Shown here: in pieces, positions 5,825 to 34,429 of the stretch | Position numbering within the stretch: position 1 is the stretch's first letter | How the letters are laid out: every line of letters starts with the position of its first letter | IMG/VR virus record: IMGVR_UViG_3300040807_000712 | Location: 1 to 35,114 of that record | Strand: one strand, 5' to 3' | Source: a virus | DNA length: 35,114 bases | Program-made: the position numbers and the translations under genes | The notes under the pieces: model-generated | Databases searched by the model: none | What the model saw: only the letters and a program-made list of their open reading frames with translations | What the model was told of the DNA's origin: nothing

Positions 5825-6271
5825 ATGGCATATTACAGCACAAAACATTACGGACACAACATTGGTTTATCAGCAGTATTCCGTCAACCTAATGCAGAGC
5901 ATTCACACTGTCATTTGCTACACGGTTACAGTCTAGCATTTACATTTACATTTGGTTGTGATCATTTAGATAACAAGAACTGGGCAGTAGACTTTGGTGG
6001 ACTAAAACCGCTTAAAGCATGGCTAGAAGATCACTTTGATCACAAAGTAGCAGTAGATGCAAACGATCCAGAAATGGAAACTATGATAATGCTAGAAAAT
6101 TTAGGACTAGCGGAAATTAGAGTTTTTGATGGTGTTGGTGCAGAGAAGTTTGCAGAACACGCATTCAACTTTGCAGACAAACTTGTACGTGAACAAACAG
6201 ACAATCGCTGTTATTGTGTACGAGTAGAATGTGCAGAGCACGGAGCAAATTCAGCAATCTACGAGGCATAA
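5825..6271 (+). CDS. QueD-like 6-carboxy/6-pyruvoyl-tetrahydropterin synthase family protein
   Basis: A 148-residue protein with AGGAG eight bases before the ATG. The T-fold landmarks are present: SAVFRQ (16-21), CHLLHGY (29-35) corresponding to the C-x3-HGH site, NWAVDFGGLK (52-61) and FDHKV (71-75). The C-terminal VRVECAEHGANSAIY carries the substrate-binding Glu region. Canonical QueD makes 6-carboxytetrahydropterin from dihydroneopterin triphosphate on the way to preQ0 and queuosine. Here the usual His of the first site reads Phe19 and HGH reads HGY, so two of three zinc ligands seem changed, with Cys29 and His33 kept. I recall marine bacterial and phage relatives with the same FRQ...HGY pattern. 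Pathway membership is therefore uncertain; no queC, queE or folE is in this window. Confidence 0.82.
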   Translation: MAYYSTKHYGHNIGLSAVFRQPNAEHSHCHLLHGYSLAFTFTFGCDHLDNKNWAVDFGGLKPLKAWLEDHFDHKVAVDANDPEMETMIMLENLGLAEIRVFDGVGAEKFAEHAFNFADKLVREQTDNRCYCVRVECAEHGANSAIYEA

Positions 6272-6985
6272 ATGCAAGACCGCTGGTTCGTATGCTTAAA
6301 GCACGGGACTAAGTATGATGCAGAGTATGTGAATACTCTGCATTCTATGTTCAAACGAAATGCACCTAGTGATGTTCGTTTTGCTTGTTACACCGATAAC
6401 AGAAATAATATTAATAAAGATATTGAAACTTTTGATTTACCATTTGTTGGCAATGTAACAGGTTGGTGGTACAAGCCTTTATTTTTTAAACCTGATTTAC
6501 CTACTCAAGGTACAATATTATATTCAGACCTAGACGTCATAATCTTTAATGACATTGGCAAATTTTATGATGTATATCCTAACAAGTTTTGTATACTTAG
6601 AGACTTTACAAGAAAAATGCGCCCCGATTGGCCTAAGTTTAACAGCAGCATTTTTAGATTAGAAGTCGGCAGTCATTCTTACGTTTATGAAAATTTTATT
6701 AAAGATCCTCGCAAGCACATAAGATTACATCACGGCGATCAAGATTATATCTACGAACAAGTTATAAAAGGTAATCATTTATATCAATTGTATCCTGACA
6801 GTTGGGCACAAAGTTATAAGTGGGAAATGCGCAACATGGCAAAGATAACTAGAATAGACGGAGTTCGAACATTTGCTGAAAAAGGACATCCGTACATTAA
6901 GAAAGATACAAGCATAGCAGTATTTCACGGACAACCTAATCCTCGAGAATGTAACGATGATTGGGTGATTGACAATTGGAAATAA
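6272..6985 (+). CDS. GT-A-like glycosyltransferase
   Basis: A 237-residue protein whose ATG follows directly after the preceding stop. It shows a GT-A-type arrangement: an N-terminal strand-rich region, WWYKPLFF (65-72), ILYSDLDVII (82-91) with DLD at 86-88 as the likely metal/nucleotide-sugar DxD motif, FNSSIF (123-128), GDQDYIY (155-161) and a C-terminal FHGQPNP (218-224). These fit the nucleotide-diphospho-sugar transferase superfamily. Donor and acceptor are unknown; virion fibres, DNA or host surface glycans are all possible. It sits between the QueD-like gene and uvsE in one run of genes. Confidence 0.75.
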   Translation: MQDRWFVCLKHGTKYDAEYVNTLHSMFKRNAPSDVRFACYTDNRNNINKDIETFDLPFVGNVTGWWYKPLFFKPDLPTQGTILYSDLDVIIFNDIGKFYDVYPNKFCILRDFTRKMRPDWPKFNSSIFRLEVGSHSYVYENFIKDPRKHIRLHHGDQDYIYEQVIKGNHLYQLYPDSWAQSYKWEMRNMAKITRIDGVRTFAEKGHPYIKKDTSIAVFHGQPNPRECNDDWVIDNWK

Positions 6986-7028
6986 AGGTGTTATAATGGA
7001 TTTGAAATTTACAACTTGCGGAGACTAT

Positions 7029-8126
7029 ATGTCGCAGACACAAAAACGTATCGGTTTTGCATGTAAGTACATGCATCCTGATCAAACACAAAAGAAAAAG
7101 TTACTAGAGGAAATACAACGTCCGCTAAATACTCGTAGCACAACAGTACAGTGGCTCAACAGACAGACACGTGATGTTGCTGAAGAACGCTTGTGGGACA
7201 TTATGGTCCATAACATTGCGTCATACAAAAGGTTGATTGAGTATGTTGGAAGTCTCCCCCCTCAACTTAGAATGGTCAGATTGGGTAGTGATGTACTTCC
7301 TGTTTATACCGAGCCTACTTGGTGTTATTTTTGGCGTAAGCCAGATGTTATTGAATATTGCGACAAAGAATTTGCAAAAGTTGGAGAAACAGCAAGAGCA
7401 CTCGATGTCCGACTATCAATGCATCCGGGACAATTTACTGTACTTGCCTCAGATAATCCGGAAATTGTTGAGAGGAGCATAGAAGAATTTGAATATCACA
7501 CCGATGTCATCCGCTGGATGGGTTATGGACGCAAGTTCCAAGACTTCAAGTGCAACGTACACATCTCAGGCCGCAAAGGTCCAGCCGGTATCAAAGACGC
7601 ACTTAAACGCCTCTCGCCGGAGGCAAGAAACTGTATTACAATCGAAAACGACGAAAACAAATGGGGACTCGAACACAGCCTTGAGCTTGCAGACGATCTC
7701 GCTTTGGTGCTAGACATACACCATCATTGGTGTAGGGAAGGAGAATATATTGAACCTAATGATGAACGCTTTGAACGTGTTATCGATAGTTGGCGCGGTG
7801 TGCGCCCTGTCATTCATTACAGTGTTAGCCGTGAAGATGTACTCACAGGTTTTAATTCAAATATACGACCAGACATGGGTGCATTACTTGAACAAGGATA
7901 CAAAAAAGCTAAACTAAGAGCACATTCTGATTATATGTGGAATGATGCTGTAAATGATTGGGCATTAGAATTTTTAGACTATGCAGACATCATGGTCGAG
8001 TCTAAATGCAAGAATCTTGCAAGCATTGACTTATATAAATACAAAGACGCAAAGGAAGATTATGAACTATTTGAATCAAATGTACGGGCGCAAAAAGCCT
8101 ACGGACCAGACCCAATCATCATCTGA
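7029..8126 (+). CDS. uvsE: UvsE-like UV-damage endonuclease
   Basis: 365 residues from ATG 7029, which has GGAG seven bases upstream and gives the family-like opening MSQTQKRIGFACKY. ATG 6996, with AAAGG upstream, is an alternative adding 11 residues. TIM-barrel metal-binding landmarks follow: VRLGSDVLP, MHPGQF (His132-Phe136), ENDEN from 206, DIHHHW (229-234) and HYS (263-265). UvsE/UVDE cuts 5' to UV photoproducts using a metal cluster, starting alternative excision repair. It suits a sunlit-water phage. The motifs appear intact, and the length is close to or slightly above typical UVDE cores. Its last 65 nt contain a late promoter and the start of the next gene. Confidence 0.92.
   Translation: MSQTQKRIGFACKYMHPDQTQKKKLLEEIQRPLNTRSTTVQWLNRQTRDVAEERLWDIMVHNIASYKRLIEYVGSLPPQLRMVRLGSDVLPVYTEPTWCYFWRKPDVIEYCDKEFAKVGETARALDVRLSMHPGQFTVLASDNPEIVERSIEEFEYHTDVIRWMGYGRKFQDFKCNVHISGRKGPAGIKDALKRLSPEARNCITIENDENKWGLEHSLELADDLALVLDIHHHWCREGEYIEPNDERFERVIDSWRGVRPVIHYSVSREDVLTGFNSNIRPDMGALLEQGYKKAKLRAHSDYMWNDAVNDWALEFLDYADIMVESKCKNLASIDLYKYKDAKEDYELFESNVRAQKAYGPDPIII
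8034..8041 (+). promoter_or_regulatory. Late promoter TATAAATA inside the 3' end of uvsE
   Basis: A perfect TATAAATA box lies within uvsE coding sequence. It ends 20 nt before the ATG at 8062, which has its own AAGGA. The same motif-to-start distance occurs at 9158 and 18888, supporting real promoter use despite the coding context. Confidence 0.65.
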
Positions 8127-21900: not shown

Positions 21901-22312
21901 TACGCAAGCAAAAGTAAATGATTTACTTGGTAGAGCAAACTATGCATCACTAAGTGCAGCTAATCCAAATTCACAAGGTTTAGTATACAGAATTGTTGCA
22001 ACAGAATATGTTTACAATGGTACAGCAAGTATTGTATCAGAAGGTAATCAACAACCAGGAGGGCCGTTTGTTGTAACAGTAAATGACTTGACTGGATTAA
22101 CTATAGGAACAATTATCAGACTCGAAAATCACGCAACAACTCCACCCAATGCATCACAGGACGGAGAGATAACAGCAATAAATACTACTAACAAGACTGT
22201 AAGTATTGATTTTGGTGATACGTTTGGTGATATAACAGATGTAGCAAACGGAACAACAGGAAGAATACTAATACAAAATAATTTTGTAGTCGTCAAAGGG
22301 AAAATTAACTAA
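18917..22312 (+). CDS. Fibre-like virion protein with parallel beta-helix segment
   Basis: 1131 residues. The N-terminal part has repeated fibre units: EELSDKPAIPSTILELGILD (from 19099), DLTDKPVIPTSLLDLSVADG (from 19591), and GQVLATDGAGNLQF. A glycine run (GGTGGGGGA) follows. Around residues 670-910 a pectate-lyase-like parallel beta-helix is suggested by INLQASINQAKSQNRNSVEL, LPSDFTFYGQGDQTQLI, SLKNLRIDGNFV, DILIENVEIQNVIGGGVYSF, NVKIAHNTFRG and GSGIFAYGASKIILT. Phage beta-helices of this type bind or cleave host polysaccharide. Catalytic residues cannot be assigned by eye, so enzymatic activity is open. The last A of the stop is the first base of the next gene's ATG. Confidence 0.82.
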   Translation: MANRYPIIVDTTNGNQFRELPEGDNLLLTGSSIVNALNISAIGTIEAQRIVIQNTEFTGSYEELSDKPAIPSTILELGILDGSSGQVLTTNGSGIISFQNIPLQDPVVGGDLSGTASTAQIRANTVGVNELDVVEGQSGQVLATDGAGNLQFITMTGGTGGGGGASNFLELSGTIGLNQIQDDFISEIKLKIANNGVEGQYLTINSDGDLEYRALPEAGAVSYNDLTDKPVIPTSLLDLSVADGNADDYLVTDGSGNFSFVELNSIKGLSFSGTTISSTSDNTNVTINAKGTGYLGILGTNAVVIPSGTTAERGTIPAGGIRFNSELNAYEGFDGTYWGSLGGVKDADQDTTITTESSAGADEDTLTFTTGGIESATLSANLLNIAQGVDVKINSTQSALDFDTGALSVDGGVSIRGNLLVSGSIDVDQTFDTSALLQVQTLTDTLTNIVTVTANDISYFKANQYVRLYNASPTELDEDNLPIPPLDQTTTNLSLAVAAVGFGEPDAGDETPFDYRIAQMDITTGKISSATISAIVDLPSAALSGFNNNNNVQLTLSRQSANHAICVYRKVGAEVQHKLIYVLGPKELQANLSNIQWTDYYDFDRVDWAGKDFTNAFTETSGVVHVPLVPPANPVKGWIDTRITSIDLDNNQLELDDSFVSSSASTSIVIDDTINLQASINQAKSQNRNSVELENRTYYVKELNLPSDFTFYGQGDQTQLIKTPWSMNTATASNSVIRLDDDNYTSFKNVSLKNLRIDGNFVNQFLASDIANPYLNYAVHMYGQDILIENVEIQNVIGGGVYSFDPSITQDLTLLNCEITNGTLTYVYEGYGPVFFDECRNVKIAHNTFRGFPGPVSIGAVQKGIVSPNVVDDCGSGIFAYGASKIILTPNVILGAAGEFIQNPDVLNSEYDQVNIQIEQNTDYNSTQYVYQENGQFFDFTANQGRLTMFINELVKTNNVEELSTDYSEDIVGNPYAEFIQSAADMQQGNFAFRITQAKVNDLLGRANYASLSAANPNSQGLVYRIVATEYVYNGTASIVSEGNQQPGGPFVVTVNDLTGLTIGTIIRLENHATTPPNASQDGEITAINTTNKTVSIDFGDTFGDITDVANGTTGRILIQNNFVVVKGKIN

Positions 22313-25300
22313 TGTCTAGCTTGAACAATATAAACAATAACACATCAGTAGTAAACGTTGGTCGAACAACACCAGTTACTCCGGGCGCACAACCTGCGGC
22401 AAAGAGTATTCCAGTTGTTGTTGCAACAGACCAAACAGCTATTCCTGTTGTAGAACAGAATAAAATACAATCAGAAGTTGCACTTTCGTTACTTGGTATT
22501 CCAAGATCAGAAGTTGCATTAGGTATTTTTGCAGATGTTAACACATATGATGTTAACCCAACAGAATGGTCGACAGAGCCGTTAGAGTACTCCGAAGTGT
22601 CTAACACACTACCGCAGTATTCAGGAATAGGCGGCAACTTAGGATGGGGAGTTAAGCACTTGCCAGAAGAATCAGGTGCAATGGTAATTGCTCCACCAGA
22701 CGAAGTTGCAATATTAACATCCAAGCGTTTTTTCCGTTATCAGCCAGGACGTGTTTCCGCAGCAACCTTTGGTATTAAAAGTTCAAGCTACCAAGGCGAT
22801 GTGTTAGGAAGTGAACAGCGTCCGCAAATACGTAATCCAGGCGTAAACAAATACGGTATTTTTGATAAGTTTGATGGTTACTATTGGGAAACAAGCGACA
22901 CAGGCGAAGGCGACCAGTTCCGTGTAGTAAGACGTACACAATCTATTATTAGAGTTAATCCATTACCGTTTGGTAATCAAGCAGGTGAACAGTTAGAAGA
23001 TCATGCACTAGGTGGTAAGCCGCCGGCACAAGAAGCAAGTGATTTTAATCAATATCCAACTGCTACAAAATATCTAAGCGAAAATAGATTTAGTATTATT
23101 GAAAAATCTGTTATACAAAATGAAGCAGTTAAGTGTCACAGAGATGTAGGCTATTTCTTAGACGGTGCTACATTTGACGTAACACTAGGAACAAACTATA
23201 ATGCTACATTCCAAGGTCTAGCAGAAGCGAACTCAAATGAGTATCAAGATGATAATACACTTCCTGCAGAAGTTATTACTGCTATTGCTAATACAAGGTC
23301 AGAAGTTAAAGCACTAGATGGTGTAGATACAACAGGTGATGCAGCAGTAGATATCTATTTTGATAGGATAGAAGCAATTTGTGTAGATGGTCCAACTAAA
23401 GTAGACTATAGTTCTGCAACACAAACAGAACAAATAAACTTCTTAAAAGGTATTACATATACAAACCCAACTAGTGGTGCAACAGCAGGACAAATTGCAG
23501 CTAAAGATGCAATTCTTGCTAACTTAGATTTTTTAACAGAAGAAGTTAACAGTTTCATTGGAAACTACTTTTCATCTCACACAGGACAAATTGAAGCCAA
23601 GTGCGAAAGAGATGTATTGTTTGCAGTACAAGCAGTTGCATATGATGTATTATATGGCGGTAACAGTGCTACACATGATGCAGCACGTTTCTTCTTTTAC
23701 GATGGATTTAGCAAAAGTGATCAAACACTAGCAGTTACAGAACAAACTGTTCTTGCATATAAGCACTTAAAAGGTGTAATCGACGATATTATCTTAGGGC
23801 AAGCATACGCTCCGCAAGCACGTTGTACTAGAGATTTAGAATACATACTAGAAGGTGTTGGTTACGATATTACATTAGGTACTAACTATCATGCAACTTT
23901 CTTAGGGCTTGCAGAATCTAACAGTTCTGAATATCCTGAAGATAGTAGTGCAGCACTAAGTTCAGCTGATGGCAGTGTTACTGCACCATGGGCTAGAGTT
24001 GTTGGAGCAATTAATGACACAGAAACTCAAGTTAAAGCATTAGCAGGTGTAGATGCAACAGCAGATTTAGAAGTTGACACATTCTATGACAATTTAAGAG
24101 CAGTTTCAGCAGATCAAAATACTCGTGTTGAATACTATTCAGAAACACAGCAAAAACAAATTGATTTCTTAAAAGCTATTACATTTACAAATCCATCAAG
24201 CGGACGTACAGCAAGTCAATTAGCATGTAAAGATAAAATTCAAGCAAACTATGATTTCTTAACAGCAGAAATAAATGCTTGGGTAGAACAACAGTATCCT
24301 AACTCAAAACATCCAGTTGCAAAATGTACTCGTGATGTGTTGTTTGTAGCAAACGCAGTTGCACACGATATGTGTTACGGTGGTAACTTTGCTACTGTAG
24401 AAGCAACAGAGTTCTTCTTCTACGAAGACTTTGCTCAAACTTCAGATGTGCATAAAAACCAAACAGTTGCAGCATATGAAAGACTAGTAGCAATTATTGG
24501 TAATGTTGTTGAAGGAACTGCTATTACACGTTCACCAGGTAATACAGTAACACAGGTTACTTCAGGCACTGATGCAGACATAGCAGACGGGGCAGCGACA
24601 GAAGCTCTTGTGCAAATTGTTGTAGATGCAATTGATGCAGAAAACGATACAGGCTTGCCAGCAGTTGTTAATCCAGATACATCATGGGCGGCTGCTTCAC
24701 TAACAAATGCTAAAACAGCAATTGACACAGATGCAAACACTATTGCAACAAGTGCAAGTGCAACAGCTTATAGTGGTTACACACAAAACAGTCAATCACA
24801 AAATACTGCAAATGTAGGTACTATTGCAGAAGCTAAAAAAGCAACAGATTTGATGGCAATTATTTTAGGTGTTATCAAGGAAGGCGATATTATTAAGAGC
24901 TTGCCTGGTAACAGAGATGTACCAGATAGAAGTTGGAGAGGTGCCGGTTCATTAACTGACGCAGCAGATGCTATTGATGCAAACAAGCAAACAATATTAG
25001 ACACAGTTGCTCCAATTGATCTAAGCAGTACAGATGATGTTAAATGTTTACGTGACTTAGAATTTGCACTAGATGCATATATTGCTGACTTGCGTTGGGG
25101 CGGTAATGGTCATACAATTACAAATGCTACTACGTATCAAACAGCATTATTATTAGATGCAGAACGTGAAGGCGAAACACACTACTACTTCCGTTATGTG
25201 CTAAGAGACGAATTATATAAATTAGGCGAATTAGAAGCTAGAGATAAAGTAGCAGACCTTGCAGCATATATGCTTCAAGCAGTAACTAAAAATGGTACTC

Positions 25301-28074
25301 CGGGTAGTAAGTATCCTCCAGTACCAGGACCTGATGGAACTACAGGTGCTATCACACAAGCACAGGTTGCAGCAGCAACATATGGTCAAAAACCAAAACT
25401 TGATACAATCTTTGGCGTTTATGACAAGTACCTAGGTTATTTAATTGGTGAAAGTTTAGCATACGATGCTACTCAATTTGTAAATGCAGAAAAAGGATTT
25501 TCATACGCAGATGCACAAGCATACGAAAATGTTCTTAAATTTAAGTGTTTAAGAGATGTTAAGTATGTTGTTAGAGGTTATGCTAGTGACTTACAATACG
25601 GTGGTAATGCAGCCACAGCGTATAATGCTAAAAAATATTACTCAGATGGCGAGCTAAAAGTTTATTCACAAACTGACGGAAATGGTGTTGTTGCAGAAGT
25701 TGAAAGACACAAATACTTGTTATGGTTATTAACAGGACAACAACCGGGTGAAGTATTCAGTGGAACACAAACTACGTTTTCACTATCAGGTTATACTGAT
25801 GTTTGCACATTCTTTGCACTAAGCGATGCACAAAAAGTTAGATTAACAGATCTAGCAACAATTATTATAAACAACTTTAATAACGAATACACAGGTTCTG
25901 TAGAATTTGGTTCAGCAGGACAGTTTGGCGATTTAGTTATTTTACGTGATGGATTAATAATGGTTCATGCAGCAGTTTATGATCCTTCATTACTTAAGAA
26001 GAAATACAAGGCACCGGCAAAACTTGATGTAGACAACAATGCTATTGCTTATGCAGGCGAACCAGTTATCATAGGTTCTTACGTAAACTATTATGGAGAT
26101 TGTCCAGACTTAGTAAATGGTAAGACATACTTCGTTGCAAATGTAACTGGACCTAAAGGTACTGTAATACAGTTAAGAGATCCAACAGAAGCAGGATTTA
26201 ATGAGTTTGACGTTAACCCAGACGATGCTGTAATTGATATAACAGCAACAGGCAACGGGCCACACTACATTGAAACACCTGTTCCGTTTATTGTACCTAA
26301 CGTATACGAAGATGTTGATCCAGCGTGGACACTAGGACAAAGACGTTATGACGGTATGTTCCCATATATGTACACAGATACAGGAACACTACCTGCAGAT
26401 GCAAACTCAATTACAGCAGGATTTATTGATACTGCTATTGATACTGCACAAAATGCAGCACAACTAAAAACACAAATTGACGATCTTAACTTTAAATATA
26501 AAACATGGGTTAGAGATAACGTAGATCCAACTTACTTTAGCGTATATGAATATAGAGTAGGTAGATCAAGATTTAGTGGTGATGCCCTAGATGGACAAAC
26601 ACGTACAGCAGTTTATTCAGATAATGTACTAGACAAACGTGCAGGTGAAGTATTTAGAAACGGTGATGTAGCAGCAGAGCAAACATCAGTTTGGGACTTT
26701 GACTTTAGTAAGGTAACTATGCTTAAAGTTGAATTTAGTTGGTATGGTGCGGTTGGTGCTCTATTCTTAGCATATGTTCCTGTAGACAACGGTGATGCTC
26801 GTTGGGTAAGAGTACACCATCTACGTTGTTCAAACCAGTTGAAGATATCTTCGCTAGGTAACGCAACACTTCCAATTACATATCTAGTTTATGGTGGCGG
26901 CAGTGAAAACAGATTTGGTATAACAAATAGTTCAAGGCTTGCTAATCCATATGGTACATATTCAGAGTACCTTGTTAAGTATGGTGCTTCATACTATATT
27001 GATGGTGGTGACCGTGGTACTGTAAGATTGTTTAATCATAGTTCAGACACACCAACTGATATAAATGGATCAAGATATACACTAGGAGTAGACAGTGCAA
27101 ATGCTGACGATCCAGTATCACCTTACATACAAGTTACTAACCGTGGACCATTTGATAGTGGAAACAGAGAAGCTCCAGTAGTAAGTACATTTTATATTGG
27201 CGCACAAGTTATTACTGGTAACTCGCAAGACCAAAACGTAAAAGTTGTTTGGATTGATGCAACAAACGGTTACTTGTATTTGAACAAACCAATTAGCCAA
27301 GTTAGTTCATTAAGTGTTATTGTTGACAGACCAGCACTAGTATACGGTTTAAAAACTAAAGATAATATTGTATCAGGTGACGGTGATGATGTGCGTAACC
27401 GTGTACAGGTTTATCCAACACGTTTAAGTGTAGGATCTTCAGGTAATGTTAATGCTAAACTAACATTACTTAAAACACCAATATATCAAAATAATGTACA
27501 AACAGTTGGCACACTTAGTGTTGCAGCAGAATCTGATGTAAACGCAAGTTATACTATTCCTGTAGATAACATCACTTATTTAAAAGAAAACGGTGACTTT
27601 ACTTATGGTTGGTTCTTAGCAAGTCTAAACGGCAGTGAAACATTAATTAATGTATTGGGTAGATTAGAAAAAGAAAGTGATGCATATCATTTTTATCCAA
27701 CTGAAATTTATAACGGTACACTAGTTCTTGCATCGGGCGCAACTTTCTTAAAAGACGGTGTTTTTGATCCAAATGGAAATGAATTAAATCCAAGCGAAAC
27801 TACATTTGAAAAAGAACGTTTAAGTTCTGTAGAAGTAGCACTAAGAGCGCAAGCACCTATTCCAGGAACAGGTATTTCTTTAGCAAGTTACTACATTGCA
27901 CCAGGTGCAGAAGAATTTGACTTAGCAACATATTTTGATTATAATAAGGAGTATATAAGTTATCCACTTACTGACGAGATCGCAACACTTTGGTTAGCAG
28001 CATATAGTAACCAAACAGCTACAACTGATACACAGGTTTCGTTAAGTGCGAGCTTTACATGGGAGGAGCAATAA
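22312..28074 (+). CDS. Large virion protein with repeated RD...GGN modules (1920 aa)
   Basis: AAAGGGA precedes ATG 22312, which shares one base with the previous stop. The N-terminal ~230 residues (LLGIPRSEVALGIFADVNTY, RYQPGRVSAATFGIKSS) and the C-terminal half (KVTMLKVEFSWYGAVGALF, YVPVDNGDARWV, KYGASYYIDGGDRG, FEKERLSS) are paralogous to the next gene. Between them lie about 900 residues with six KC/RC-x-RD...D...GN modules starting at residues 274, 430, 504, 671, 911 and 1078. Examples are KCERDVLFAVQAVAYDVLYG and KCTRDVLFVANAVAHDMCYG. The first four form a tandem duplication. The cysteine at each module start is unusual for a cysteine-poor fibre. I recall such modules in marine T4-like virion proteins. 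Probably a structural or adhesion protein of the tail. Confidence 0.82.
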   Translation: MSSLNNINNNTSVVNVGRTTPVTPGAQPAAKSIPVVVATDQTAIPVVEQNKIQSEVALSLLGIPRSEVALGIFADVNTYDVNPTEWSTEPLEYSEVSNTLPQYSGIGGNLGWGVKHLPEESGAMVIAPPDEVAILTSKRFFRYQPGRVSAATFGIKSSSYQGDVLGSEQRPQIRNPGVNKYGIFDKFDGYYWETSDTGEGDQFRVVRRTQSIIRVNPLPFGNQAGEQLEDHALGGKPPAQEASDFNQYPTATKYLSENRFSIIEKSVIQNEAVKCHRDVGYFLDGATFDVTLGTNYNATFQGLAEANSNEYQDDNTLPAEVITAIANTRSEVKALDGVDTTGDAAVDIYFDRIEAICVDGPTKVDYSSATQTEQINFLKGITYTNPTSGATAGQIAAKDAILANLDFLTEEVNSFIGNYFSSHTGQIEAKCERDVLFAVQAVAYDVLYGGNSATHDAARFFFYDGFSKSDQTLAVTEQTVLAYKHLKGVIDDIILGQAYAPQARCTRDLEYILEGVGYDITLGTNYHATFLGLAESNSSEYPEDSSAALSSADGSVTAPWARVVGAINDTETQVKALAGVDATADLEVDTFYDNLRAVSADQNTRVEYYSETQQKQIDFLKAITFTNPSSGRTASQLACKDKIQANYDFLTAEINAWVEQQYPNSKHPVAKCTRDVLFVANAVAHDMCYGGNFATVEATEFFFYEDFAQTSDVHKNQTVAAYERLVAIIGNVVEGTAITRSPGNTVTQVTSGTDADIADGAATEALVQIVVDAIDAENDTGLPAVVNPDTSWAAASLTNAKTAIDTDANTIATSASATAYSGYTQNSQSQNTANVGTIAEAKKATDLMAIILGVIKEGDIIKSLPGNRDVPDRSWRGAGSLTDAADAIDANKQTILDTVAPIDLSSTDDVKCLRDLEFALDAYIADLRWGGNGHTITNATTYQTALLLDAEREGETHYYFRYVLRDELYKLGELEARDKVADLAAYMLQAVTKNGTPGSKYPPVPGPDGTTGAITQAQVAAATYGQKPKLDTIFGVYDKYLGYLIGESLAYDATQFVNAEKGFSYADAQAYENVLKFKCLRDVKYVVRGYASDLQYGGNAATAYNAKKYYSDGELKVYSQTDGNGVVAEVERHKYLLWLLTGQQPGEVFSGTQTTFSLSGYTDVCTFFALSDAQKVRLTDLATIIINNFNNEYTGSVEFGSAGQFGDLVILRDGLIMVHAAVYDPSLLKKKYKAPAKLDVDNNAIAYAGEPVIIGSYVNYYGDCPDLVNGKTYFVANVTGPKGTVIQLRDPTEAGFNEFDVNPDDAVIDITATGNGPHYIETPVPFIVPNVYEDVDPAWTLGQRRYDGMFPYMYTDTGTLPADANSITAGFIDTAIDTAQNAAQLKTQIDDLNFKYKTWVRDNVDPTYFSVYEYRVGRSRFSGDALDGQTRTAVYSDNVLDKRAGEVFRNGDVAAEQTSVWDFDFSKVTMLKVEFSWYGAVGALFLAYVPVDNGDARWVRVHHLRCSNQLKISSLGNATLPITYLVYGGGSENRFGITNSSRLANPYGTYSEYLVKYGASYYIDGGDRGTVRLFNHSSDTPTDINGSRYTLGVDSANADDPVSPYIQVTNRGPFDSGNREAPVVSTFYIGAQVITGNSQDQNVKVVWIDATNGYLYLNKPISQVSSLSVIVDRPALVYGLKTKDNIVSGDGDDVRNRVQVYPTRLSVGSSGNVNAKLTLLKTPIYQNNVQTVGTLSVAAESDVNASYTIPVDNITYLKENGDFTYGWFLASLNGSETLINVLGRLEKESDAYHFYPTEIYNGTLVLASGATFLKDGVFDPNGNELNPSETTFEKERLSSVEVALRAQAPIPGTGISLASYYIAPGAEEFDLATYFDYNKEYISYPLTDEIATLWLAAYSNQTATTDTQVSLSASFTWEEQ
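23131..24537 (+). repeat. Diverged tandem duplication of about 230 residues
   Basis: Unit 1 (23131-23820) and unit 2 (23821-24537) match throughout at protein level: DVTLGTNYNATFQGLAEANS against DITLGTNYHATFLGLAESNS; QINFLKGITYTNPTSGATA against QIDFLKAITFTNPSSGRTA; RDVLFAVQAVAYDVLYGGN against RDVLFVANAVAHDMCYGGN. The repeat keeps frame. Confidence 0.8.
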
Positions 28075-31534: not shown

Positions 31535-34429
31535 ATGGCAATTGAAGGCGAATTAAAGTTTGGACTTAATGTAAACCGAAACCTAGCAGATATTGTTAAC
31601 AATACGCAAGCTCTAGCAAACATAGGCGTGGACATAAAAGACTTAGATGTTATTCGTGGTGCAGCAGGCGACTTAGGCATTACAGCAGACGATGTTAGAG
31701 CTCTTAGTGGCCTTAATGTTCCAGTACAAACATATCTAACTAAACTTTATACTGATACACAACAATATGCAAGTATTATTGATCAAACAGCAGGAACAAC
31801 AGAGCCTTTAAAAGGCAACCTAACTATTAATGGACAGCTAGGTGCTGCAAGTATTAAGTATCAATATATTGATAAAGCAGACGATATAACACTAAAATAT
31901 GCAGATATTTCAACAAGTCGTATATCTAGTTGGAGTTCTCCAGACAGTCCAAACTCTACAGAAATAAGTCCTATTTTTTATGGTGGTGCTGTAGAAGTTG
32001 ATGGGCCTGTAAAAACACCTGAAATTGAATTATTAGATCCTCCAATCGAAGTTCGTTTTAGGGATTCCGAAGTTCCGACACACAAAATAGAAATAGAACT
32101 AAACGGTAGTACTTTATATTTTTATGCTATGAAAGGTATTCCTTTGGTGTTTAAAGGTTTCTTTAGAAATCTTGATAGTGATCTAAGATTAGTTAATAGA
32201 GGTGCAGTAAGTTGGAGAATTGTCAACAATACTGCTGAATACTTAACTAGAGAATATGAAAACGTTGGTGGATCTGATACTACTCGAAGTTTTTTAAGAT
32301 ATAGAGACACTAGAGCTGCAAGTAAAAATATCGAAATATATCATAATCCAAACAATATTCGAACACTTCCGTTATATGCAGTTGGTATTGAAGAACTACC
32401 ATTGGCTTCTTTGGAAAGTTTACAGTACATATACATATATAGAAACTTAATTAAAACAATGCCAGACTTTACTGTTTTTGCACCAAATCTACTATTGTTA
32501 GATATACGTGAAAATAATATGGAGTTAAGTGGTGATCCAAATCTTAGATCTTTTAACCAAGCAGTTGTTGATAGAATACCAAAAACTGTAACTGAAATAC
32601 GTTTTGGAAACACATACAATGGTTCTATCACAGGGAACTTTAAACCAGATACAATTACAGACGGAAATCTTGTAATTGGAAGACAGTATACAATATTGAC
32701 ATTAGGCGACGGTCAAGGTGGAGCAGTTTCAAACTTTGCAACAGTGGGTGCTGGAACAAATGCTTTCTACCAAACATTTACCGCAACAGGTACTGATGCA
32801 GGTGGAACAGGAACTGTCGCAGATTTAACAACAGGATTACCTAAACTAGTTACTCTTAATTTAAACAGTCACAGTAGAGGCGGAGCAAGAAACTTTTTTG
32901 GTAGAGATAGTGCAGACCCAGATGGATTTTTACCCGAAGTACATATAACTTGTAGAAATTATTATGCATATCGTAATCAATTTGATAATATACCAGATAG
33001 TGTAATGTCATTACCAGATCTAAGAGTGCTTAATTTATATGCTAATAGTATAACTGAACCTAATTTTAGAATTGATAGTAACAATATTGATTACATTAAT
33101 ATTGGAAATAATCAGGGTATTAACAATCCAAATCTAACAGGAAAAACTGCATTAAGAAACTTTTATAATCATTATCAACGAGGCGGCAGTATCACAGATG
33201 ACGGACTATTATATACTCCAGCAGGAGATTATAAGTTTTTAAACTGTAGTTCTTTACAAAGAATTTATTGCTACAGTAATAGATATTACGGACCAATTGG
33301 TAAATTCCAAGGTAATAATGTACTGTATCAGTTTGAATCAAGATACAGTAGAATATCGGGTGGTAAAATGATTGATGCTATTGATATGGAAGATGGCATA
33401 GAATATCAAATTTGGTATAACCCTGATGTAACAACAAATAATATTGTTCTTGACGAATACTATCAAATTGTAGACAGTAGTGATTTTGACTTTACTACAT
33501 TAGGTGCTGCTAATAATACTGTCGGAACAGTATTTCAGGCTACTTCTACTACTGCTACAAACGCAACAAATGCTAGAGTTAGAGTGGACTTTACACAAGT
33601 TGGAGCAGGTGCAAGTACAAAGTATACAGTGTTTACAGCAGACTTATCAACAAATTCTATAAACTATACTAATATTAGAGTAGTAGATAGAGAATATGTA
33701 TTACATGAAGATTTATTTGATGATTGTTTTACAACTATGCAGTATTTTAGAATAAGCAGTAGTAGCTTATTTAATGCACCACTTCATCCAGACTTATTTG
33801 CAAAATCATCTAATATGCGTGGATTAGAAATACGTAGTTTTAATAGAGGTATAACAGGTAATATACCAAGTTTTGCATCGATGCAACGTTTAAGATATGT
33901 TGTATTTTTGCAAAATAAATTTACAGGACCAGTACCAAGTTTATTTAATAATCCAAGTGTTTACTATGTACACCTATATCAAAACTTGTTATCAGGCGCT
34001 GTTCCTGTTATTGAAAGTTTAGGATTAAGATATCTGTACCTACATAGAAATCAGCTAACTGAGTTTAACGGTCTTGCAACACCTAATATCTTAAGACTAT
34101 TCCTTAGTTACAACCAAATTGCAGGTAATGTTCCTTCAATGAGTAATTTAGAATTGTGTTATGACTTATATCTAAACAATAACTTGTTTAGTGGCTATAC
34201 AGTAGGTGCTATTGTTGGTATGAGATCATTAAGAAGATTTGATTTAAGTAATAACCCAACACTTACAGGTCAAGCAGTAAATGATATTATTGCCGATTGT
34301 GTTGCAAACTATGAAGCAAATCCACGTAGTGGTGTAAGTGTAAACTTAGCAAACACTGCAACAATAACAGGCGAAGCAGTAGAACAACTAGAGTTCTTAA
34401 GAGCTGCTGGTTGGAATATGAGGAACTAA
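31535..34429 (+). CDS. Fibre-like virion protein with leucine-rich repeats (964 aa)
   Basis: The N-terminus (RNLADIVNNTQALANIGVDI, LDVIRGAAGDLGITADDVRA) looks like a fibre-attachment region. Leucine-rich repeats begin near residue 278 (LPLASLESLQYIYIYRNLIK, NLLLLDIRENNMELSG), continue through PDLRVLNLYANSI, and form a clear block at about 783-912 (FLQNKFTGPVP, HLYQNLLSGAVP, YLHRNQL, FLSYNQIAGNVP, YLNNNLFSG, DLSNNPTLTG). The N-x-L/F-x-G-x-x-P form resembles plant-type LRRs, which bind proteins or glycans. Two copies of a G-rich module (32650 and 33430) interrupt the LRR series. Likely a receptor-binding appendage. AAGGA precedes the ATG. Confidence 0.82.
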   Translation: MAIEGELKFGLNVNRNLADIVNNTQALANIGVDIKDLDVIRGAAGDLGITADDVRALSGLNVPVQTYLTKLYTDTQQYASIIDQTAGTTEPLKGNLTINGQLGAASIKYQYIDKADDITLKYADISTSRISSWSSPDSPNSTEISPIFYGGAVEVDGPVKTPEIELLDPPIEVRFRDSEVPTHKIEIELNGSTLYFYAMKGIPLVFKGFFRNLDSDLRLVNRGAVSWRIVNNTAEYLTREYENVGGSDTTRSFLRYRDTRAASKNIEIYHNPNNIRTLPLYAVGIEELPLASLESLQYIYIYRNLIKTMPDFTVFAPNLLLLDIRENNMELSGDPNLRSFNQAVVDRIPKTVTEIRFGNTYNGSITGNFKPDTITDGNLVIGRQYTILTLGDGQGGAVSNFATVGAGTNAFYQTFTATGTDAGGTGTVADLTTGLPKLVTLNLNSHSRGGARNFFGRDSADPDGFLPEVHITCRNYYAYRNQFDNIPDSVMSLPDLRVLNLYANSITEPNFRIDSNNIDYINIGNNQGINNPNLTGKTALRNFYNHYQRGGSITDDGLLYTPAGDYKFLNCSSLQRIYCYSNRYYGPIGKFQGNNVLYQFESRYSRISGGKMIDAIDMEDGIEYQIWYNPDVTTNNIVLDEYYQIVDSSDFDFTTLGAANNTVGTVFQATSTTATNATNARVRVDFTQVGAGASTKYTVFTADLSTNSINYTNIRVVDREYVLHEDLFDDCFTTMQYFRISSSSLFNAPLHPDLFAKSSNMRGLEIRSFNRGITGNIPSFASMQRLRYVVFLQNKFTGPVPSLFNNPSVYYVHLYQNLLSGAVPVIESLGLRYLYLHRNQLTEFNGLATPNILRLFLSYNQIAGNVPSMSNLELCYDLYLNNNLFSGYTVGAIVGMRSLRRFDLSNNPTLTGQAVNDIIADCVANYEANPRSGVSVNLANTATITGEAVEQLEFLRAAGWNMRN
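32650..32823 (+). repeat. Copy d of the dispersed module, inside the LRR series
   Basis: ITDGNLVIGRQYTILTLGDG, then TNAFYQTFTATGTDAGGTGT. It lies between LRR-like TEIRFGNTYNGSITGNF and LPKLVTLNLNSHSR, as if inserted between two repeats. Confidence 0.5.
33430..33590 (+). repeat. Copy e of the dispersed module, inside the LRR series
   Basis: LDEYYQIVDSSDFDFTTLGA, then NNTVGTVFQATSTT. It matches the opening and FxA portions of copies a and d and again separates LRR-like stretches. Confidence 0.45.

Follow-up and report, generated by a model that had tools for sequence, protein, structure and literature searches.

Tandem modules with a predicted phycobiliprotein fold and a putative bilin-attachment motif in a phage tail structural protein

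The presence of a repeated, cysteine-bearing module inside one very large phage structural protein, encoded next to a paralogue that has none, raises the question of what such modules are and what they might contribute to a virion. The stretch of DNA analysed here, referred to throughout as the window, is an IMG/VR virus fragment of 35,114 bases in which nucleotides 22312-28074 (+) encode a 1920-residue virion structural protein; its relative is the virion structural protein AEZ65692 of cyanophage S-TIM5, and the large structural genes of the window in general are related to structural genes of that phage. Upstream genes encode an ATP-dependent DNA ligase, a dCMP-deaminase-like protein, QueD, a glycosyltransferase and UvdE, with the UV endonuclease UvdE and QueD-like genes at 6969-8126 and 5825-6271, 5' of the structural cluster. 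At 31535-34429 lies the gene for a 964-residue protein with leucine-rich-repeat matches (PF12799, PF13855), an unusual neighbour for phage tail genes. Profiles of PHROG 5342, 4527 and 701 (tail fiber / virion structural protein) match the modules of the 1920-residue protein, and these are whole-protein families in which the module carries no assigned fold or function.

A preliminary description of the locus had recognised six modules, each opening with K/R-C-x-R-D, in an array ending at nucleotide 25660. All six sites were recovered at the residues proposed (Table 1), and a module HMM finds exactly six domains in the protein, within an insert of about 970 residues. The array itself ends only at about residue 1205 (nucleotide ~25926), and the internal GGN ascribed to the modules is present in four of them, M1 and M3 both having GTN. 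The repeat is above chance, slices of M1 and M3 aligning at 1e-53 and those of M2 and M4 at 1e-18, and 14 of the 15 module pairs beat shuffled sequences with z of 3.7-64, M1/M4 reaching only 1.1. Judged from these alignments, a two-module unit was duplicated in tandem to give M1-M2 and M3-M4.

Table 1. Features of the module-bearing gene and of its downstream neighbour, in window coordinates.
Feature	Residues	Coordinates	Strand	Motif, Cys, internal triplet	Remarks
N-terminal scaffold, 1920-aa protein	1-233	22312..23010	+		~54-70% identity to orthologues with or without modules; two blocks align with 1150-aa paralogue
M1	274-429	23131..23598	+	KCHRD, Cys275, GTN	HMM E 9.6e-15
M2	430-503	23599..23820	+	KCERD, Cys431, GGN	HMM E 2.5e-20
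M3	504-670	23821..24321	+	RCTRD, Cys505, GTN	M1 tandem copy, 51% identity; HMM domain
M4	671-910	24322..25041	+	KCTRD, Cys672, GGN	M2 tandem copy, 47% identity; HMM domain
M5	911-1077	25042..25542	+	KCLRD, Cys912, GGN	HMM E 4e-20
M6	1078-1205	25543..25926	+	KCLRD, Cys1079, GGN	HMM E 7e-28, top-scoring copy
C-terminal scaffold	1206 to stop	25927..28074	+		begins GDLVILRDGLIMVHAAVYDPSLL; residues 1412-1588 align with 1150-aa paralogue
Module-free paralogue, 1150 aa		28078..31530	+		directly downstream in almost every orthologous locus of sufficient length

The 1150-residue neighbour had been described as essentially the same scaffold without the modules. It is indeed a paralogue, but a partial one: only three blocks of the two proteins align (residues 29-112, 135-233 and 1412-1588 of the 1920-residue protein, 33-38% identity), and the sameness of the scaffold was therefore overstated. 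Inheritance of the modules from this paralogue was ruled out, as it has none. Its residues 609-676 match E1_FCCH (PF16190) above the cut-off, possibly through a common beta-domain fold. Cleaner proof that the modules are an insertion comes from orthologues with an empty site. A search of IMG/VR for relatives of the window locus yielded 73 loci, in which the orthologue carries six modules (L002-L004), four (L006-L020, L024, L027), two (many loci) or none; all copies are placed between the same scaffold segments, and in the zero-copy forms, which represent the empty site, the C-terminal scaffold comes shortly after the N-terminal one. The same gene pair with no modules in the second gene was seen across orthologous loci, and the S-TIM5 protein AEZ65692 is likewise a scaffold orthologue, in a genome without any module. 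Degenerate leftover modules were not found in zero-copy orthologues (best HMM E 0.04; hhalign aligned only the LRDGL scaffold). By BLAST correspondence the four-module form is M1-M2-M5-M6 and the two-module form M5-M6, a pattern from which the array seems to have expanded by pairs.

A first lead to the nature of the modules came from a fibre fragment of S-WAM2, for which 14 of 14 matches in the PDB were phycocyanin alpha, with the alignment at the chromophore site. When a profile of 35 modules was compared with 177,635 PDB sequences, 29 of the 30 matches at E<=10 were again phycocyanin alpha (top E 0.028), and profile positions 1-22 aligned on phycocyanin alpha residues 83-104, the C84 site, in a register that sets module K1-C2-x-R4-D5...G20-G21 on K83-C84-x-R86-D87...G102-G103. 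Because the individual E-values of this search are weak (0.03 and up), the fold was subjected to three further tests. Aligned by hhalign with a reference profile of 31 cyanobacterial CpcA/CpcB-type sequences, across which C84, R86 and D87 are invariant, the modules of T4-like cyanophages gave a probability of 93.9 and a score of 47.9 over 61 columns covering helix B and helix E, and those of the window family a probability of 75 and a score of 36.6 over only 26 columns; among the controls, none of 36 other phage families exceeded 17.5 and none of 120 column permutations 17.2, and the reversed profiles gave 12.9 and 9.8. For the T4-like modules, sequence homology is detectable beyond the motif, helix B included. 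Within the window, a helix-B-like segment of the form N..(F/I)I stands upstream of M1, M2, M4 and M5, that before M2 being LANLDFLTEEV and that upstream of M4 QANYDFLTAEINAWVEQQYP. The Pfam Phycobilisome model matched none of the 35 modules at E up to 10.

Structure prediction points to the same family. AF2 without templates models residues 225-1228 of the 1920-residue protein as all-helical (mean pLDDT 68.9); the helices that bear the Cys in M1, M5 and M6 belong to its better-predicted portions. The motif is borne on helix 271-292 in M1, on helix 907-929 in M5, where helices 933-943, 950-970 and 974-992 follow, and on helix 1065-1096 in M6; M2 is predicted to form helices 426-448, 452-466 and 473-494. 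Foldseek was read from the best 50 PDB matches for each AF2 model. Among the matches listed for the window array, all those with a probability of 0.95-1.00 are phycobiliproteins (TMt 0.48-0.66); the E-values are only 2.9e-3 to 0.5, and the matched family is uniform. For a T4-like module taken from a different contig, an independent model (pLDDT 86.7, pTM 0.80) gave essentially only phycobiliproteins among the 50 PDB matches listed, at probability 1.00, counting as such one entry titled 'bacterial fluorescent protein' on account of its phycobiliprotein-like length and its rank. BFVD models of tail or structural proteins of S-PM2, S-WAM2, S-CAM1 and S-ShM2 show the same fold. The concern voiced in the preliminary description, that the modules might differ in fold, was not borne out, the predicted fold being common to them. 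It is thus very probable, on the models and profile alignments, that the modules are divergent phycobiliprotein-fold domains, belonging to the bilin-binding branch of the globin superfamily, and by the same lines of evidence the module is a new branch of this fold in a new place, the phage tail. No earlier case of a phage structural protein with a phycobiliprotein fold was found in the families, structures and literature searched; the earlier remark that no role had been described holds for the modules themselves, although the fold family to which they are assigned is famous.

The modules extend well beyond the window family. T4-like cyanophage proteins of 3,000-6,700 residues, with annotations that include short tail fibre, tail fibre and baseplate wedge subunit (gp7), carry several each, and odd module numbers (3, 5, 7) are common among these phages. 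One 2773-residue IMG/VR protein (L096 3732-12050) has 12 modules, many of them about 162 residues apart, which is nearly as long as one phycobiliprotein chain. In tblastn searches of 50,697 phage records, modules of S-WAM2 matched 348 and those of another contig 249, the matched records being by name Synechococcus and Prochlorococcus phages, cyanophages, and one marine single-cell virus; a 70-residue query from M6 matched no phage. Modules are absent from pelagiphage HTVC008M, P-SSP7, P-SSM2 and S-TIM5.

Conservation within the module is concentrated on the motif. A profile iterated over relatives of the window and T4-like cyanophages comprised 64 clusters (62% identity); variability is lowest in columns D5, C2, D16, K1 and R4, and so the C, R and D of the motif are all among the five most conserved. 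The cysteine was proposed at the outset to be conserved in homologues, and this held: C-R-D is kept in 64 of the 67 non-redundant modules of the window family and the motif Cys in 70 of the 72 modules of T4-like cyanophages, figures that are upper bounds since the collecting HMM contains the motif and favours copies that bear it. The exceptions form a single lineage of two-module proteins (L022 7765-11439; L023 7938-11618; L034 7400-11080) in which both modules have lost the Cys and kept the remainder of the motif in part. The Cys is also missing from some array copies of bilin-reductase phages, and the domain can thus exist without attachment.

Three functions had been suggested for this cysteine. 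Metal binding finds no support, there being no second ligand pattern apart from the lone Cys and Asp. A disulfide within the module was rejected as unlikely on Cys counts, 55 of the 67 non-redundant window-family modules having no other Cys within -60..+94 and no conserved in-module partner being present. Pairing between the cysteines of neighbouring modules, or of fibre-trimer subunits, could lock the tail protein, and would suit both the many two-module proteins with exactly two array Cys and the joint loss of both in the one Cys-less lineage; we nevertheless consider it improbable, given the odd module numbers of T4-like phages, the scarcity of a second Cys nearby and the position of the residue within C-x-R-D at the phycocyanin register. 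The third suggestion, a covalent function, is the best fit, since phycobiliproteins attach their bilin through a C-x-R-D motif (PMC10151467).

The reading that we favour, at a rough probability of 0.57, is that these phages carry a biliprotein on their tail, a string of divergent phycobiliprotein-fold domains of which each intact module most likely binds a linear tetrapyrrole. A structural protein of the tail, or one associated with the baseplate, would hold the modules like beads on a string, the Cys-x-Arg-Asp of each standing at the start of a helix equivalent to phycocyanin helix E. The motif Cys would form a thioether to ring A of the bilin, with the Arg and Asp holding other parts of it; in phycobiliproteins, and in some bilin biosynthesis-associated globins (BBAGs), the bilin is borne on the Cys of C-x-R-D and is hydrogen-bonded by the Arg and Asp, and C-x-R-D globins of the BBAG type can load bilins without a lyase (PMC10151467). 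The attachment itself is, on balance, probable. The bilin could be supplied by the phage's own heme oxygenase and bilin reductase or by a cyanobacterial host, and its attachment to the motif Cys of every module would line up pigments along the tail or baseplate, for which a light-responsive adsorption or an optical role may be proposed. It is also possible, although we think it rather unlikely, that modules taken from a phycobiliprotein or BBAG-type globin bind no bilin and act only as rigid helical spacers by which the tail protein is lengthened, with C-x-R-D retained for folding or packing. Copy numbers that rise by pairs (0, 2, 4, 6) are spacer-like, and the Cys losses just described show that its absence is tolerated; yet a spacer leaves unexplained why Cys, Arg and Asp are near-invariant precisely at the chromophore-site position when most other columns vary.

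If the modules do bind bilins, the genes for bilin synthesis become relevant, and relatives of the window have them. The genes for heme oxygenase and for a ferredoxin-dependent bilin reductase are adjacent in the records G006 (six modules), G008 (four), G002 and G003 (two each), and G020 (two) has bilin reductase; psbA is absent from all of these module-bearing records of the window lineage. G006 is a 99% relative of the window with a short bilin reductase frame (161 residues), and in G003 tens of kb separate the reductase (at 35.6 kb) from the module gene of the same genome (at about 72 kb). In relatives of the window the heme oxygenase gene comes first and the bilin reductase gene overlaps it or directly follows, as at L189 899-2133, L190 1010-2255, L191 940-1969 and L192 961-2254; cassette neighbours in L190 and L191 resemble ClpS and Hsp20, and L191 is a 99% window relative whose reductase frame has only 161 residues. 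Searching in the other direction, from the bilin reductase, 10 of 26 contigs were found to carry modules, in several different giant proteins. Among bilin-reductase contigs of at least 50 kb the proportion is 8 of 10, versus 0 of 20 among random IMG/VR contigs that meet the same length threshold (Fisher p 7.7e-6, uncorrected for contigs that are not phylogenetically independent and for a random set that is not habitat-matched). For this enrichment the bilin-free spacer offers no reason, but bilin genes and modules are uncoupled, as that account would allow, in G004, which has bilin reductase and psbA and no modules, and in P-SSM2, which carries bilin genes and is itself without modules. In the S-TIM5-like group, both long module-free genomes (W01, which is S-TIM5, and G004) have psbA and no tested module-bearing contig does.

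The restriction of tblastn matches to cyanophage records, the one marine single-cell virus aside, might also suggest that the modules imitate host phycobiliproteins and, with no chromophore of their own, bind a phycobilisome component, linker or lyase. Phycobilisomes, however, are intracellular and phage tail proteins act outside the cell; the modules are divergent and yet retain the chromophore triad, and those bilin-reductase phages that lack psbA may not infect cyanobacteria. Such mimicry is accordingly very hard to credit. The pigment-attaching residues in the modules, together with pigment genes in relatives, suggest that the tail of these marine phages may be coloured and perhaps able to sense light.

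A further class of genes to consider is that of the bilin lyases. T4-like phages often encode CpeT, and in S-RSM4, ACG-2014e, Sf-FR1, Syn1 and S-WAM2 its gene immediately precedes the fibre gene that bears the modules. It was not found beside that gene in S-B64, S-CAM22, S-WAM1 or P-HM1, nor anywhere in the eight window-family records tested, and CpeT was on these grounds ruled out as an obligate partner; its adjacency may reflect a shared region of gene gain. In several Synechococcus phages the CpeT-type bilin lyase gene and the giant module-bearing tail-fibre gene that it closely precedes were located at L075 11321-24438, L079 13338-24954, L080 10424-25350 and L103 13998-27296. Cluster C phages encode the lyase CpcV (PMC10665884).

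One conceivable use of bilin-loaded modules in the baseplate or tail fibres is as a photoreceptor carried on the virion, through which adsorption would become dependent on light and which would give a purpose to the bilin genes of the phage (heme oxygenase, bilin reductase and bilin lyase); we regard this as doubtful. Adsorption of S-PM2 is reportedly light-dependent, and P-SSM2 is said to adsorb in the dark. P-HM2 does not adsorb in the dark, and P-SSP7 infects in the dark (PMC7112961). The proposal fits these four phages, with five modules in P-HM2 and nine in S-PM2 versus none in P-SSP7 and P-SSM2, a correspondence that is suggestive only, host physiology being an adequate alternative.

Should the domains carry bilins, a possible answer would be at hand as to why phages free of photosystem genes make bilin pigments, the purpose of the phage hemO-pcyX/pcyA cassette being called 'still enigmatic' (PMC11480375). 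CpeT and the other bilin lyases of phages would gain a possible substrate of their own, and light-dependent adsorption of cyanophages would become directly testable. Even as apo-domains, the modules would represent an antenna-protein fold turned into a modular building block of the tail in hundreds of cyanophage records.

Comparison with known systems places the modules among familiar proteins in an unfamiliar arrangement. With phycobiliproteins (C-phycocyanin alpha, phycoerythrin beta, cryptophyte biliproteins) they share the predicted globin-like fold, a (K)-C-x-R-D on the helix that carries the chromophore Cys84, the 18-residue spacing from the Cys to the Gly-Gly turn and a helix-B segment in register. 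They differ from phycobiliproteins in being tandem beads inside a giant virion protein and in having a further, near-invariant Asp at 14 residues beyond the Cys; structural alignments give about 11-18% identity, and the Pfam phycobilisome family is not matched. The BBAGs and photoglobins are similarly kin of phycobiliproteins outside photosynthetic antennae, some with C-x-R-D, and are associated with heme oxygenase and bilin reductase genes (PMC10151467), but BBAGs stand alone and cluster with the bilin genes, whereas the structural protein in which the modules recur is encoded tens of kb from such genes. Finally, relatives of the window carry the same two-gene cassette as the phage hemO-pcyX/pcyA systems, for which the accessible part of their description names no phage-encoded bilin acceptor (PMC11480375), and the tail modules described here are a candidate for that acceptor.
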